Assembly: GCA_016927315.1 (NCBI GenBank) | Contig: JAFGMV010000122.1 | Coordinates: forward strand, 1 to 40,947 | Source of the DNA: Anaerolineales bacterium | GTDB lineage: Bacteria > Chloroflexota > Anaerolineae > Anaerolineales > Villigracilaceae | Length of the DNA stretch: 40,947 nucleotides | Reading direction: 5' to 3' | Part shown: in pieces, positions 23,042 to 40,536 of the stretch | Numbering within the stretch: the stretch's first letter is position 1 | Layout: every line of letters begins with the position of its first letter | Position numbers and translations under genes: made by a program | Notes under the pieces: generated by a model | The model's database searches: none | What the model saw: only the letters and a program-made list of their open reading frames with translations | What the model was told of the DNA's origin: nothing

Positions 23042-23722
23042 TTATGCCCTGGTTTCCCTACCGGACAGAAAATCTGCTACAGCAAAGTCCAGTTCTTCAT
23101 CGATATCCCAGGCTTCAGAGGGATCGATCTCAAACAACAGGGGACGCTCACCAATACGGTGATTCCACCTGAGCAGGTTTTCACGGGTAAACAAATACAG
23201 GCATGAATTCTCCTCATACACCGGAGGCAGGTCCTGGGTCTGCAGCAATTCACGCGGGTTATGGTTGATCGCCCGGCCCTGCTGATCATATAAACGGGTT
23301 TGCAAGCGTGTGACCGAAAAGAGCGAGTCATAGCCAGGGAAGCTGTCCAGAAAGGTTTGGATGCCGCTGGCAATTGTCCCTGCTTTCAGCAAAGGGTTGG
23401 TGCTGTGTGTCTGCAGGTAGAAATCCGCTTCTGCCAGACCAGTGTCATACTTCAGGATTTCATTCATGGGAACATCATCGGGGCGCAAATGCTGGGGACG
23501 ATCGATCACACATACGGACGGGAAATGTTCTCTCAGGCCGTCCATGACCGGTATCGAATCGGTGTCGACCAGGATCTCATTGATTTGTGGAACATCCAGC
23601 AGGGTAGTGATTATATGGTGGTACAGCGGCTTCCCATCCAGCAAGCGGTAATTCTTCCCGGGTACACGTTGGCTGTGATGCCGCATTGGAACAAGGGCTG
23701 TTATTTTGTGTGATTTCTCCAT
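23042..23722 (-). CDS. Acylneuraminate cytidylyltransferase family protein (second NeuA-like)
   Basis: A 226-aa nucleotidyltransferase of the NeuA superfamily. The CTP-binding loop reads PMRHHSQRVPGKNYR instead of the usual P-A-R-x-G-S-K, a recognised divergent branch. EILVDTDS, FYLQTHSTNPLL and DIDEELDFAVAD match later family motifs. The sugar substrate is unknown; it may activate a different acidic sugar from the NeuA-HAD fusion at 35-36 kb. It starts at ATG 23722, overlapping the phosphoesterase stop by 1 nt, and is the last gene of the second glycan locus. Confidence 0.85.
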   Translation of the reverse strand: MEKSHKITALVPMRHHSQRVPGKNYRLLDGKPLYHHIITTLLDVPQINEILVDTDSIPVMDGLREHFPSVCVIDRPQHLRPDDVPMNEILKYDTGLAEADFYLQTHSTNPLLKAGTIASGIQTFLDSFPGYDSLFSVTRLQTRLYDQQGRAINHNPRELLQTQDLPPVYEENSCLYLFTRENLLRWNHRIGERPLLFEIDPSEAWDIDEELDFAVADFLSGRETRA

Positions 23723-24930
23723 TATTCGTTCTCGACTGTAATAATAATTTTTTCAGAAACCGCTTTCGTGTGATTTGGATCCCCTGAATATTCAGCCGCG
23801 AAGGTCTGCATGCCAGCCGTAGTCACGATCAGTTCACAACTGCCCCGCTGTACCGTCCCGGTACAACTGTCGACGCCATTGGTAATCGTCACCTCGCCGG
23901 AAAGCGCTTCCCCACCAGTCATATCAAAGGACAGCTGGAACTGGTTGTCGTCATCGGTGAGATAGGCATCCAGGTAGGGGGAGTAGGTGGTCACTGTGAC
24001 TAGATCGGTATTCGGGTGAAAAGTCAGTATCCTCAGATAACCATTCCCACCATTTTCCATATCCTGGTAATCCGAGAGCATCTGGTGTACAGGGCGGCCT
24101 TGGTTATCCGTCTGCCTTGCCACACCGGGAACGTGCCCGGACAGAACAAAATAGATATTGGTATTGTTCTTTACCAACCGCCTCCAGATACCACCGCCAT
24201 CAACAGTACCATCACTGTGATCCTTGCACTGCCTGAAACGATCGTTGAGATGCAGGTAGGCATGCGTTGATACCATCGCAATCCGGTCATCATGCTCTTT
24301 AACTACCTCATTGGCCCACTCGATCGCCTCATTCGTAGGGCAGTACTGCAGGTGCAAAAACAGGTAATCATCCCCACCTGCTGAAAACAGCTGGTAATTG
24401 TTCTTGTTCCCATTGAAATTGCCTCCCCACCAGGGCTGATCCTGGTAGCGGGAAACCGGGAAATACTGTTCATAATAGCCAGCCTGACCGCCCTCTTGCA
24501 TATCATGATTTCCGGGCAGAACGGCATACGGGACCACGCCATCCAGCACGCTCATGGCCGAGTCCGCTGCCTTCCATTCCTCTACCAGCAGGTCATTGTT
24601 TTGTACGATATCCCCCAGGTGAGTGACAAAAACAATATTCCGGTCCACTGCGTTCTCTACGATCCAGGCGGTTTGAGATGCATAGATCTCCGGATATTTT
24701 TCGGAGTAATGCTGTGTATCAGGCAGGGCAATGATCGTGAAATCGCTCGCATCACTCATAACCCGGTAAACAAACCTGACTTTCTCCCCGACCATGGGTA
24801 AAGCGGACAGCCGGGGAGAGAATACGATCTCAGAGGTTTCCTTCGAATTCATTCCCCATAAATATCCAATCGCTCCTACAACAACCAGGAAAATCACTGC
24901 GATAAGAATAAACCCTTTTCTGATATTCAT
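23722..24930 (-). CDS. Extracytoplasmic metallophosphoesterase with C-terminal Ig-like domain
   Basis: A 402-aa protein. An N-terminal anchor or signal helix (about 7-26) puts the rest outside the membrane. The calcineurin-like domain has the metal-binding motifs DTQHYS (from residue 71), GDIVQN (106-111), GNHD (140-143), STHAYLH and LSGHVPG. A C-terminal segment of about 65 aa (TITNGVDSCTGTVQ through FAAEYSGDPNHTKA) looks like a bacterial Ig-like domain. The substrate may be a phosphorylated glycan or nucleotide; nothing fixes it. It is coupled to the cytidylyltransferase and follows the sulfatase-fold gene. Confidence 0.85.
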   Translation of the reverse strand: MNIRKGFILIAVIFLVVVGAIGYLWGMNSKETSEIVFSPRLSALPMVGEKVRFVYRVMSDASDFTIIALPDTQHYSEKYPEIYASQTAWIVENAVDRNIVFVTHLGDIVQNNDLLVEEWKAADSAMSVLDGVVPYAVLPGNHDMQEGGQAGYYEQYFPVSRYQDQPWWGGNFNGNKNNYQLFSAGGDDYLFLHLQYCPTNEAIEWANEVVKEHDDRIAMVSTHAYLHLNDRFRQCKDHSDGTVDGGGIWRRLVKNNTNIYFVLSGHVPGVARQTDNQGRPVHQMLSDYQDMENGGNGYLRILTFHPNTDLVTVTTYSPYLDAYLTDDDNQFQLSFDMTGGEALSGEVTITNGVDSCTGTVQRGSCELIVTTAGMQTFAAEYSGDPNHTKAVSEKIIITVENE

Positions 24931-24967
24931 TTCTCTTCTTCTCTACCTGGTCATACCCACGAGAATA

Positions 24968-38786: not shown

Positions 38787-38811
38787 CCCAGGCGGCGGAC
38801 TGCCGCCCGGG
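38787..38811 (-). promoter_or_regulatory. GC-rich hairpin between the PAPS synthase and GT39 genes
   Basis: A stem GGCGGC (38791-38796) with GCCGCC (38802-38807), extended by CCC/GGG beyond a mismatch, fills the 57-bp gap. It lacks a T-tract, so it may stabilise or pause RNA rather than terminate, lowering expression of downstream genes relative to the PAPS synthase. Confidence 0.4.
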
Positions 38812-38826
38812 TTGAAATCAGACCAT

Positions 38827-40536
38827 CTATTTGTTGAGAAGACTCTGGTCCTGGAGATATTGGACAATTTTGCGGGCATTTTCTTCAGGAGTTGCCCCGG
38901 CGCCTACCAGGGTGATCTCCGGGTCAATAGGCTCCTCGTAAGGATCATCGACGCCTGTAAAACCTTTGATCTCACCGCGGCGGGCTTTGGCATATAACCC
39001 TTTGACATCACGCTGTTCACAGACTTCAACGGGAGTATCCACATAGGTCATGATGAAGTTATCGCCTACCATCTTGCGAGCTTCATTGCGGGCATTGCGA
39101 TAAGGACTGATCGCGGCGCAAATGACGACGCCGCCATGACGCACGATTTCACCGGCCACAAAACCGATGCGCAGGATATTGGTGTCACGGTCTTCCTTGC
39201 TGAAACCAAGACCTTTGGAAAGGTGGGTGCGCACGACATCGCCATCCAGGACTGTCACGATCTTGCCGTGTTCCAGCAGCAGGTCGGTCAGCACCTGGGT
39301 GGTCGCCGACTTTCCAGATCCACTCAAGCCGGTGAACCAGATGCAAAAACCCTGTTTATGACGGGGGGGATACATTTCGCGCAGGATCTCTGCGGTTTCA
39401 GGGCGGGTAAACCACTCAGGCAGCAGTTCGCCTTTGGCCAGGTAGTCCTCGCGCACCTGGGTGCCAGAGATATTGGCCGTTTTAGCGCCTTCCGGAACCT
39501 TATCAATTTCAACATACCGGTCCTCATCCGGCAGGTAAACCAGCATCTGGAATGGAACCATCTTGACTCCCAGCTCTTCTTCATATTCTTGAAGGAGTTC
39601 CTGGGCGTCATAGGGACCATAGAACGGTTTACCGCTTGAATCATTGCCCGGACCCGCGTGGTCACGGCCGACAATGAAGTGGTTGGCGCCATGATTGCGC
39701 CGGATAATGGCATGCAGCAGTGCTTCACGGGGCCCGGCCATGCGCATGGCCAGGGGCAGCAGGCTCAAGGCTGTATTCTTCTTGTCGTAGTAATACTCAT
39801 ACAGGGCTTTGTAAATACGAACTCGCGTGGAATGATCGACATCACCCGGTTTGGTCATACCAACCACAGGATGGATCAACAGAGACCCGCCAACCTTTTC
39901 AGCTGCGCGCTTGGTCAATTCCTCATGGATGCGGTGCAGGGGATTGCGGGTCTGGAACGCAACCACATTGTCATTGCCCATCTTTTCAAGCACTCCCCGC
40001 ACTTCTGCCGGTGCGAGGCGCAGCTCGATAAAGTCATGATACTTGGGCAGGCTGATCACTTCCAGGGCGCCAGAAATACAAACCTTGTTCCAGCGTGCCA
40101 TCTCAGAGACCATCGGGTGACGGGAATCGTTGGAGCCATAGGCCAGGCGGGCTTCTTTTTCAGGGCTCCAGGAAAAGACTTCTTCCAGCTTCATGATTGC
40201 CAGGGGATCATTCAAAGAATTACGCAGCACCACTTCCTGTCCAACGGGGGGCAGTTCTTCAGGGCTGGCGGTCAGGGTAACAGGCAGCGGCCACAGGGCG
40301 CCGTCAGATAATCGCATATCGTTTAAAACTCGCTCATAGTCGGTTTTACCCATGAAACGATCCAGGGGAGAAAATCCACCGGTTGCAATGAGTTCCAGGT
40401 CACATTGATTGCGCATCGAGATCTTGATCGAGGGGAGTTCTGTCACACGCTCCTTTAATGCTTCGCGTTCACTCTCTGCCGCGACAAGATTTACCAGTTT
40501 ACCGCCATATGGGGCGATGAGTTTTGCCTTCGTCAT
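38827..40536 (-). CDS. sat-cysC: Bifunctional sulfate adenylyltransferase / adenylylsulfate kinase (PAPS synthase)
   Basis: Makes PAPS from sulfate and two ATP. Residues 1-390 are ATP sulfurylase with [12 protein letters not shown] (194-205, the two catalytic His) and GRDHAGPG (290-297). Residues 395-569 are APS kinase with Walker A GLSGSGKS (403-410), DGD (431-433) and [14 protein letters not shown]. The domain order ATPS-APSK is that of Aquifex-type bacterial enzymes, opposite to animals. No PAPS reductase, sulfite reductase or sulfate transporter lies in the window. With three sulfotransferases nearby, a role in sulfation rather than assimilation is likely. ATG at 40536 follows AGGAG. Palindrome site C lies just upstream. 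Confidence 0.95.

Follow-up and report, generated by a model that had tools for sequence, protein, structure and literature searches.

A Kdn-9-phosphate pathway is known in Bacteroides thetaiotaomicron and Prymnesium parvum (PMC6200933). Among glycosyltransferases, KpsC (GT107), WbbB (GT99) and KrkA (GT140) are described as retaining Kdo transferases, and KpsS1 as a Pse transferase (PMC10148158, PMC12887879). In granular sludge, Pse/Leg, Kdn and sulfated polymers were measured in the same extracts, and among the abundant genera reference sulfotransferases gave few matches (PMC10483923, section 3.4). That paper's main text contains neither the word Chloroflexi nor Anaerolin. A search of the open-access literature for Anaerolineae together with nonulosonic acid returned no match, and neither did one for BFO_1060. 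Sialic acid and sulfated EPS in Chloroflexi led there to an anammox reactor paper, and sulfotransferases with polysaccharides in Anaerolineae to papers that include two on EPS of Shark Bay mats. Matches for a Chloroflexi nonulosonate, alone or with sulfation, and the match for a bacterial gene cluster with a sulfotransferase and nonulosonic acid, were unrelated as judged by title.

We analysed a 40,947-nt stretch of DNA from an Anaerolineales bacterium (the window), in which a preliminary description had proposed a locus for an acidic glycan carrying both a nonulosonate and sulfate. The ORF list and family profiles recovered all the genes named there, on the minus strand between 23042 and 40536, and no further minus-strand ORF of at least 90 aa was found within these limits. 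The genes are as follows.

38827..40536, minus strand: PAPS synthase, an ATP sulfurylase (PUA-like and catalytic parts) fused to an APS kinase (NF004040; PF01747, PF01583, PF14306)
37174..38769, minus strand: GTC1, GT-C/PMT-like membrane protein accompanying the sulfated form of the locus (PF02366, 48.3 bits)
36331..37161, minus strand: SDR, member of the nonulosonate core (PF13561, 156.9 bits)
35097..36359, minus strand: CMP-ulosonate-type cytidylyltransferase (N-terminal; PF02348, 71.2 bits) with a KdsC-like HAD phosphatase (about aa 264-415; PF08282)
34216..35100, minus strand: NeuB-family synthase without a SAF domain or Glu134 equivalent (PF03102, 281 bits)
33327..34181, minus strand: ST_A, sulfotransferase of SULT fold with Tyr replacing the SULT His (PF00685, 35.6 bits; motifs; model)
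31736..33349, minus strand: KpsL, KpsC/KpsS-like, predicted retaining CMP-nonulosonate transferase, start corrected (PF05159, 31.7 bits, cut-off 20)
30347..31720, minus strand: GTC2, GT-C-like membrane protein (weak PF13231, 24.1 bits, cut-off 26.1)
29476..30408, minus strand: ST_B, SULT-like sulfotransferase, His kept, start uncertain (PF00685, 28.5 bits; motifs)
27817..29205, minus strand: putative SAM-dependent methyltransferase (weak NCBIfam methyltransferase match, aa 289-344)
26856..27788, minus strand: GT2, family 2 glycosyltransferase within the conserved order (PF00535, 75.3 bits)
24968..26530, minus strand: membrane-anchored alkaline-phosphatase-superfamily enzyme with an invariant Thr (PF00884, 20.4 bits, cut-off 25)
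23722..24930, minus strand: metallophosphoesterase with an Ig-like domain (PF00149, 37.6 bits; PF16640 under cut-off)
23042..23722, minus strand: CTPs, second cytidylyltransferase (PF02348, 93.1 bits)

Profile matches confirmed the Sat-CysC fusion, the SDR, the cytidylyltransferase-HAD protein, NeuB, both PF00685 proteins and the PF05159 protein, as well as GT2, the metallophosphoesterase and the second NeuA-like gene. Of the two proposed GT-C/GT39-like membrane proteins, GTC1 was verified and the match of GTC2 fell under its cut-off. From the PAPS synthase onward, the intergenic distances were 57, 12, -29, -4, 34, -23, 15, -62, 270, 28, 325, 37 and -1 bases; the genes do run in one direction, with mostly short gaps or overlaps and two gaps that are not short. 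The order was kept in 72 of 75 relative loci, indicating that the arrangement is not due to chance, and the conserved synteny proposed earlier as a check was thereby found. All ten mapped genes were present in 8 of the 72 order-keeping loci. At 2926-16483 the same window holds another glycan locus, which has a sulfotransferase of its own. A scan of viral contigs returned nine relatives with 45-58% identity.

We consider it likely that the nonulosonate core and a sulfation cassette jointly build one surface glycan, predicted to bear sulfate esters as well as a Kdn-like sugar acid. What was computed directly is the gene order, the co-occurrence of PAPS synthase with sulfotransferases in the loci, the motifs and two model folds. 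The acidic glycan first proposed is thus retained as the best reading, with synteny in its favour, and a dedicated PAPS synthase is withdrawn from its support.

NeuB is a 294-aa protein that matched PF03102 alone and lacks the C-terminal SAF domain of N-acetylneuraminate synthase. Glu134, which is important in that enzyme, was replaced by Ser or Ala in 80/80 relatives. Equivalents of E25, K53, Q55, K129, Y186, H215, E234, H236 and D247, which we take to be functional residues, were present in all 80, including the catalytic Lys, His and Glu of the PF03102 superfamily. The protein scored 271 bits against TIGR03569 (N-acetylneuraminate synthase; equivalog cut-off 399.65) and 231.6 bits against TIGR03586 (pseudaminic acid synthase; 340.25), below both. 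Its neighbour scored 139.9 bits against TIGR03584 (cut-off 205.7) in its cytidylyltransferase part. The HAD part, with a DxD-type start visible in its sequence, reached 129.2 of 208 bits for NF007019 (KdsC) and 87.3 of 180 bits for NF058599 (Kdn-9-P phosphatase), under both cut-offs and higher for KdsC; it matched 3mmz best, followed by KdsC chains and 3e81, the Kdn-9-P phosphatase. This HAD domain is a sign of a phosphorylated intermediate, which the preliminary description had missed. The HAD preference for KdsC (129 against 87 bits), like the absence of SAF and Glu134 from NeuB, would also fit another 2-keto-3-deoxy acid, Kdo-like and made from a pentose phosphate, in which case KpsL would build a KpsS/KpsC-like linker or anchor and not a decoration. 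Against such a product stand the placement of NeuB in PF03102, whose solved members related to it are named sialic or pseudaminic acid synthases or SpsE, and a cytidylyltransferase more PseF-like (139.9 bits) than KdsB-like (42.9 bits). The SDR was mapped in 51 of the 53 well-covered loci. A fusion of NeuA-HAD with NeuB, suggested by a 736-aa NeuB frame in one genome (G164), was rejected since the genes lie in different overlapping frames; in another (G350, 854-aa frame) the stretch showed a 298-aa NeuB frame, with NeuA-HAD in a different one.

KpsL probably starts near 33349 and not at 33544, because the extended frame runs into the sulfotransferase gene, and in locus L016 the entire open frame is 541 aa long. 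Its model has the fold of the GT99/GT107/GT140 retaining ulosonate transferases. The (K/R)XHP CMP motif was found as RAHP in 40/40 sequences, and Asp323 was likewise invariant, but Asn319 replaced the Gln of QXXXD in all 40. The protein was mapped in 47 of the 53 well-covered loci. It is closest to beta-Kdo transferases, a further point for a Kdo-like product, which we nevertheless consider unlikely beside the Kdn-like sugar acid. A Kdo-like ulosonate would be compatible with sulfation.

PAPS synthase was present in 35 of the 53 well-covered loci and absent from 18. The nonulosonate core also exists without sulfation genes (18/53), a form missed by the preliminary description. PAPS synthase and sulfotransferases co-occurred in loci, mostly both or neither, and GTC1 at at least 250 bits was found in 29/35 loci with PAPS synthase against 0/18 of the others. 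Across 152 genomes, PAPS synthase occurred without ST_A in 16 and ST_A without PAPS synthase in 5; in five of six discordant genomes inspected, another sulfotransferase or the end of a contig accounts for the mismatch, and one (G111) is unexplained. In the NeuB tree we counted five cassette changes, three of them forced by well supported branches; a paired sign test for independent cassette origins gave a median p of 0.25, the events being too few for significance. Named comparison strains exist, since records named Bellilinea caldifistulae, Longilinea arvoryzae and Thermanaerothrix daxensis contain NeuB and KpsL relatives; no PAPS synthase or sulfotransferase match was found in their NeuB-KpsL stretches. 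The locus suggests that sulfation moves as one unit, on top of a nonulosonate core that is conserved.

ST_A and ST_B both exceeded the PF00685 cut-off of 22 bits. ST_A carries the motifs PKSGSHLL, RDPRD..S and GKTGGW, and in the family alignment PKSGxH, RDPRD, S131 and RxGxxGxW did not vary (29/29). Its model matched SULT1A1 and SULT7A1. Most cytosolic SULTs act on small molecules, and the two enzymes might accordingly work elsewhere, with a secondary metabolite, a lipid or the uronate polymer next door as substrate, while the nonulosonate glycan is still made. The sulfotransferase of the other glycan locus in the window and the 18 core loci lacking sulfation genes agree with this, as does a genome of the same order and another family (G243), in which PAPS synthase and an ST_A relative are both far from NeuB. 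However, sugar-sulfating enzymes of SULT fold exist, in the window, as in many loci, ST_A lies with NeuB on one side and KpsL on the other, and in one genome (G348) ST_B and KpsL share a single frame. This is the one fusion among the 133 genomes with KpsL, and it stands on a contig of 11 kb whose assembly is 7% contaminated. Action elsewhere appears distinctly unlikely, and we favour sulfation of the nonulosonate glycan itself.

The Sat-CysC fusion scored 831.8 bits against NF004040 (cut-off 669). It had been described as dedicated to sulfation, which was not upheld: no second PF01747 match exists in the genome, and another contig carries a CysH. Among 88 good family genomes, 52 had PAPS synthase with CysH, 26 PAPS synthase alone and none CysH alone; the counts for all 152 were 83, 37 and 9. 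From the sole match, the separate CysH and the lack of a CysH-only genome among the 88, the PAPS pool is probably common to sulfation and CysH. The same facts could mean that an assimilatory gene sits here by chance and sulfation is minor. We regard this as very improbable, given that 26 of the 78 good genomes with PAPS synthase had no CysH match, that NIR_SIR sulfite reductase was not found in the window's genome (92.7% complete), and that sulfotransferases accompany PAPS synthase in the loci.

Among the remaining genes, the putative methyltransferase had no Pfam match; best-hit relatives occurred in four loci (L045, L047, L073, L081). GT2 was found in 21 and CTPs in 18 of the 28 loci having about 10 kb downstream, CTPs in both sulfated and unsulfated ones. 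Given its PF00884 score, its Thr (SNY..T in 8/8) and the absence of a CxPxR nucleophile from the window's protein, the supposed sulfatase-fold enzyme is probably no sulfatase and belongs elsewhere in the alkaline phosphatase superfamily; sulfate removal by it was rejected because the nucleophile motif is missing. The metallophosphoesterase has a hydrophobic N-terminus in translation and is probably membrane-anchored.

In the proposed pathway, NeuB would join PEP to a hexose 6-phosphate, for which Man-6-P or a relative altered by the SDR is the likeliest candidate, and so yield a nonulosonate 9-phosphate. The HAD domain would strip the phosphate and the fused cytidylyltransferase form the CMP-nonulosonate, as their families suggest. 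KpsL, a KpsC-like GT-B enzyme by fold and motifs, may transfer the sugar with retention via Asp323. Sat-CysC would supply PAPS, with which ST_A and ST_B may sulfate two different positions of the same glycan; completion and export would fall to GT2, the GT-C proteins and further genes lying outside the locus. A bolder reading, which we judge less likely than not, is a lineage-wide bacterial pathway for a sulfated sialic-acid-like glycan: a new nonulosonate made by a phosphorylated route with a SAF-less, Glu134-less synthase and an SDR, a transferase that founds a new retaining glycosyltransferase family (NxxxD/RxHP), and a detachable sulfation cassette, in one version as a glycosyltransferase-sulfotransferase fusion. 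NeuB, KpsL and ST_A/ST_B are single enzymes suited to in vitro tests.

The locus sulfotransferases share the fold and PAPS-binding motifs of cytosolic SULTs, but are two paralogues in one locus adjoining a glycosyltransferase; ST_A has Tyr at what we take to be the catalytic His position, whereas ST_B keeps His. KpsL shares the GT-B fold, (K/R)XHP and a nucleophile Asp, in register by eye, with KpsC, WbbB, KrkA and KpsS1 as described, and differs from them in the Asn replacing Gln; it is also longer than KpsC (537 aa, where one KpsC module has about 320), and in sequence the two are similar only weakly (E 0.013 for a KpsC chain). As in the Kdn-9-phosphate pathway outlined in PMC6200933, a PEP synthase, a phosphatase and a CMP synthetase are present and NeuC is not needed; here, however, the phosphatase and cytidylyltransferase form one protein, which scores under the NF058599 cut-off, an SDR accompanies them (51/53 well-covered loci), and the synthase lacks SAF and Glu134. 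The granular-sludge extracts contained nonulosonates (Pse/Leg, Kdn) and sulfated polymers, both kinds of group being predicted for this locus; in the account of PMC10483923 they are a chemistry without an assigned locus. The present locus supplies candidate genes for the sulfated, sialylated polymers measured in wastewater granules.

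The window is contig C10 (1-40947) of a 3.88-Mb genome in 130 contigs that is 92.7% complete. ORF and family searches bore out the gene list first read at 23042..40536, all on the minus strand. The short gaps or overlaps described there held for intergenic distances of -62 to 57 bases, but not at two exceptions of 270 and 325. The genes most used below are as follows.

38827..40536, minus strand: PAPS synthase (Sat-CysC fusion)
37174..38769, minus strand: GTC1, GT-C/PMT-like membrane protein
34216..35100, minus strand: NeuB
33327..34181, minus strand: ST_A, sulfotransferase
31736..33349, minus strand: KpsL, KpsC/KpsS-like transferase (start shifted to about 33349 by ORF comparison)
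29476..30408, minus strand: ST_B, sulfotransferase
27817..29205, minus strand: putative methyltransferase, with no Pfam family matched over its whole length
23042..23722, minus strand: second cytidylyltransferase

An alignment of 14 close relatives represented NeuB in a search of public genomes. The best 80 of 588 loci encoding a relative were fetched, a choice that favours close kin; almost all of them carried the names Anaerolineales, Anaerolineae, Chloroflexi or genera within these, with one Thiomonas and one Herpetosiphon. The contig labelled Thiomonas intermedia (L003) carried PAPS synthase, NeuA-HAD and NeuB (82% identical), and is likely misbinned. NeuB relatives of 45-58% identity were also seen on nine viral contigs (L096-L104). 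When the window proteins were mapped onto the ORFs of the fetched loci, 75 loci had at least three of the ten genes sharing a strand, and the search for the ordered set that the preliminary description had proposed was successful among these close kin: the window's order was kept in 72 of the 75, and ST_A was placed after KpsL in the other three (L076, L079 and L081). All ten genes were present in eight loci. The cytidylyltransferase-HAD gene lay at most 2.5 kb upstream of NeuB in 68/73 loci, and KpsL lay downstream of it in 62/71.

To compare core and sulfation genes, we used the 53 of 80 loci in which the sequence around NeuB extended 7.5 kb or more upstream and 4 kb or more downstream, and excluded the remaining 27; a match of at least 150 bits to ST_A or ST_B was taken as a clear sulfotransferase. 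PAPS synthase and a clear sulfotransferase were both present in 34 loci and both missing from 18; PAPS synthase stood alone in one (L018), where a sulfotransferase is present too at a threshold of 20 bits, and a sulfotransferase alone in none. GTC1 (at least 250 bits) was found in 29 of 35 PAPS-synthase loci and 0 of 18 others, whereas SDR, cytidylyltransferase-HAD and KpsL occurred in 51, 51 and 47 of the same 53. Thus, the nonulosonate core occurs with or without the sulfation cassette. On the NeuB tree the cassette state changed at least five times, and branches with good support require three of these changes. The direction of change was the same for PAPS synthase and sulfotransferase in an average of 2.7 out of 3 pairs, which is too small a sample for a test. 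In some unsulfated loci a second NeuB lies upstream (L073:754-1821; also L082, L078 and L072; 356-366 aa where complete), so these loci may make two nonulosonates.

Among 152 genomes of the window's taxonomic family, PAPS synthase was present in 120, ST_A in 109, NeuB in 132, KpsL in 133 and CysH in 92. The co-occurrence counts are given below; because the genomes are related, Fisher values for them are not probabilities of function.

Co-occurrence with PAPS synthase (both; PAPS synthase only; partner only; neither). Good genomes: completeness at least 90%, contamination at most 5%.
ST_A, 152 genomes: 104; 16; 5; 27
ST_A, 88 good genomes: 71; 7; 1; 9
CysH, 152 genomes: 83; 37; 9; 23
CysH, 88 good genomes: 52; 26; 0; 10

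Twelve stretches were fetched, six of them belonging to the group of 16 in which PAPS synthase was present and ST_A had no match. An ST_A relative (236 bits) adjoins PAPS synthase in G363, two weak sulfotransferase matches (22-26 bits) lie beside it in G350, ST_B is retained in G348 and G398, a contig end falls inside ST_A in G318, and the sole sulfotransferase match in G111 is weak (18 bits). G164, G344 and G365, which lack both PAPS synthase and ST_A, kept the core, with no sulfotransferase match within the fetched stretch. The arrangement in G243, from another family of the same order, counts against linkage of the sulfation genes to NeuB: PAPS synthase (C8:519559) is distant from NeuB (C8:66187), the ST_A relative (49% identical) is on C5, and neither was in the stretch fetched around NeuB. 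Of 298 genomes drawn from the wider class, 216 matched PAPS synthase at 1e-20, many over the sulfurylase part alone. At the same threshold ST_A matched in 18 genomes, and NeuB, at 1e-80, in 28. PAPS synthase as such is therefore not specific to the locus.

The preliminary description had seen the PAPS synthase as dedicated, with no reductive sulfur genes nearby. Dedication was not borne out as stated: contig C19 of the same genome carries a CysH (PF01507 had one further match, below cut-off). NIR_SIR had no match in the window's genome. The single PF01747 match in the genome is the window's PAPS synthase. No other Sat-type source of PAPS was found there, and hence CysH and the sulfotransferases may both draw on this one enzyme. 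A TauE/SafE-type sulfite exporter gene was observed near CysH (L094:1627-4943).

An alignment of 29 ST_A- and ST_B-type sequences kept the PAPS motifs throughout. The His position of ST_B (SAHLFA) was His in 14/14 ST_B-type rows and Tyr in 15/15 ST_A-type rows, a split which suggests different acceptors. The ST_A structure model (pLDDT 91.4) matched SULTs. In G348 (L090:1415-3949), KpsL (aa 1-534, 65% identical) and ST_B (aa 556-845, 58%) share a single 845-aa frame. All other frames in the list of KpsL matches, which covers 133 genomes, were 667 aa or shorter, so the long frame could reflect either a genuine fusion or a stop codon lost in one assembly.

NeuB (294 aa) matched PF03102 alone in Pfam. 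The residues that we take to be catalytic were invariant in 80/80 relatives except at the Glu134 position, where 69 have Ser and 11 have Ala; SpsE, PseI and meningococcal NeuB, in contrast, have Glu there. In ten frames of the second NeuB type from the fetched loci (many cut), the residue was Asp (3), Glu (2), Leu (2) or a gap (3), indicating that Glu is not universal at this position. The nearest structure to the fused HAD domain was 3mmz, followed by KdsC structures, with 3e81 lower, and the domain fell below the curated cut-offs of both the KdsC and the Kdn-9-P phosphatase equivalogs. A phosphatase is required where a pathway uses phosphorylated sugars, and many bacterial pathways need none (PMC6200933). 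Together with the rarity of NeuC (above its cut-off in 14/152 family genomes), this favours a Kdn-like route. A Kdo-like sugar is one rival reading and is compatible with sulfation; the rival explanations of the locus thus partly coincide, and their probabilities do not have to total one. The SDR may alter the sugar.

For the sulfatase-fold protein, 8/8 aligned rows carry the Thr of SNY..T, and the protein lacks the CxPxR motif; it may be a phosphoester transferase. The second cytidylyltransferase occurred in sulfated and unsulfated locus forms; L016, L052 and L073 have a 2-hydroxyacid dehydrogenase gene close to it. A second glycan locus was also seen in the window, at 2926..16483 on the minus strand, and could supply a flippase or uronate.

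2926..3858, minus strand: sulfotransferase (156.7 bits)
Within 2926..16483, minus strand: asparagine synthase, GTs, and GDP-mannose-dehydratase-like, flippase-type, epimerase and UDP-glucose-dehydrogenase-type genes

No description of the stable combination, the KpsL motif variant, the altered NeuB subfamily or the coupled cassette was found in the open-access literature searched. The chemistry of the product is predicted from the genes, and the individual parts of the locus are of known kinds.
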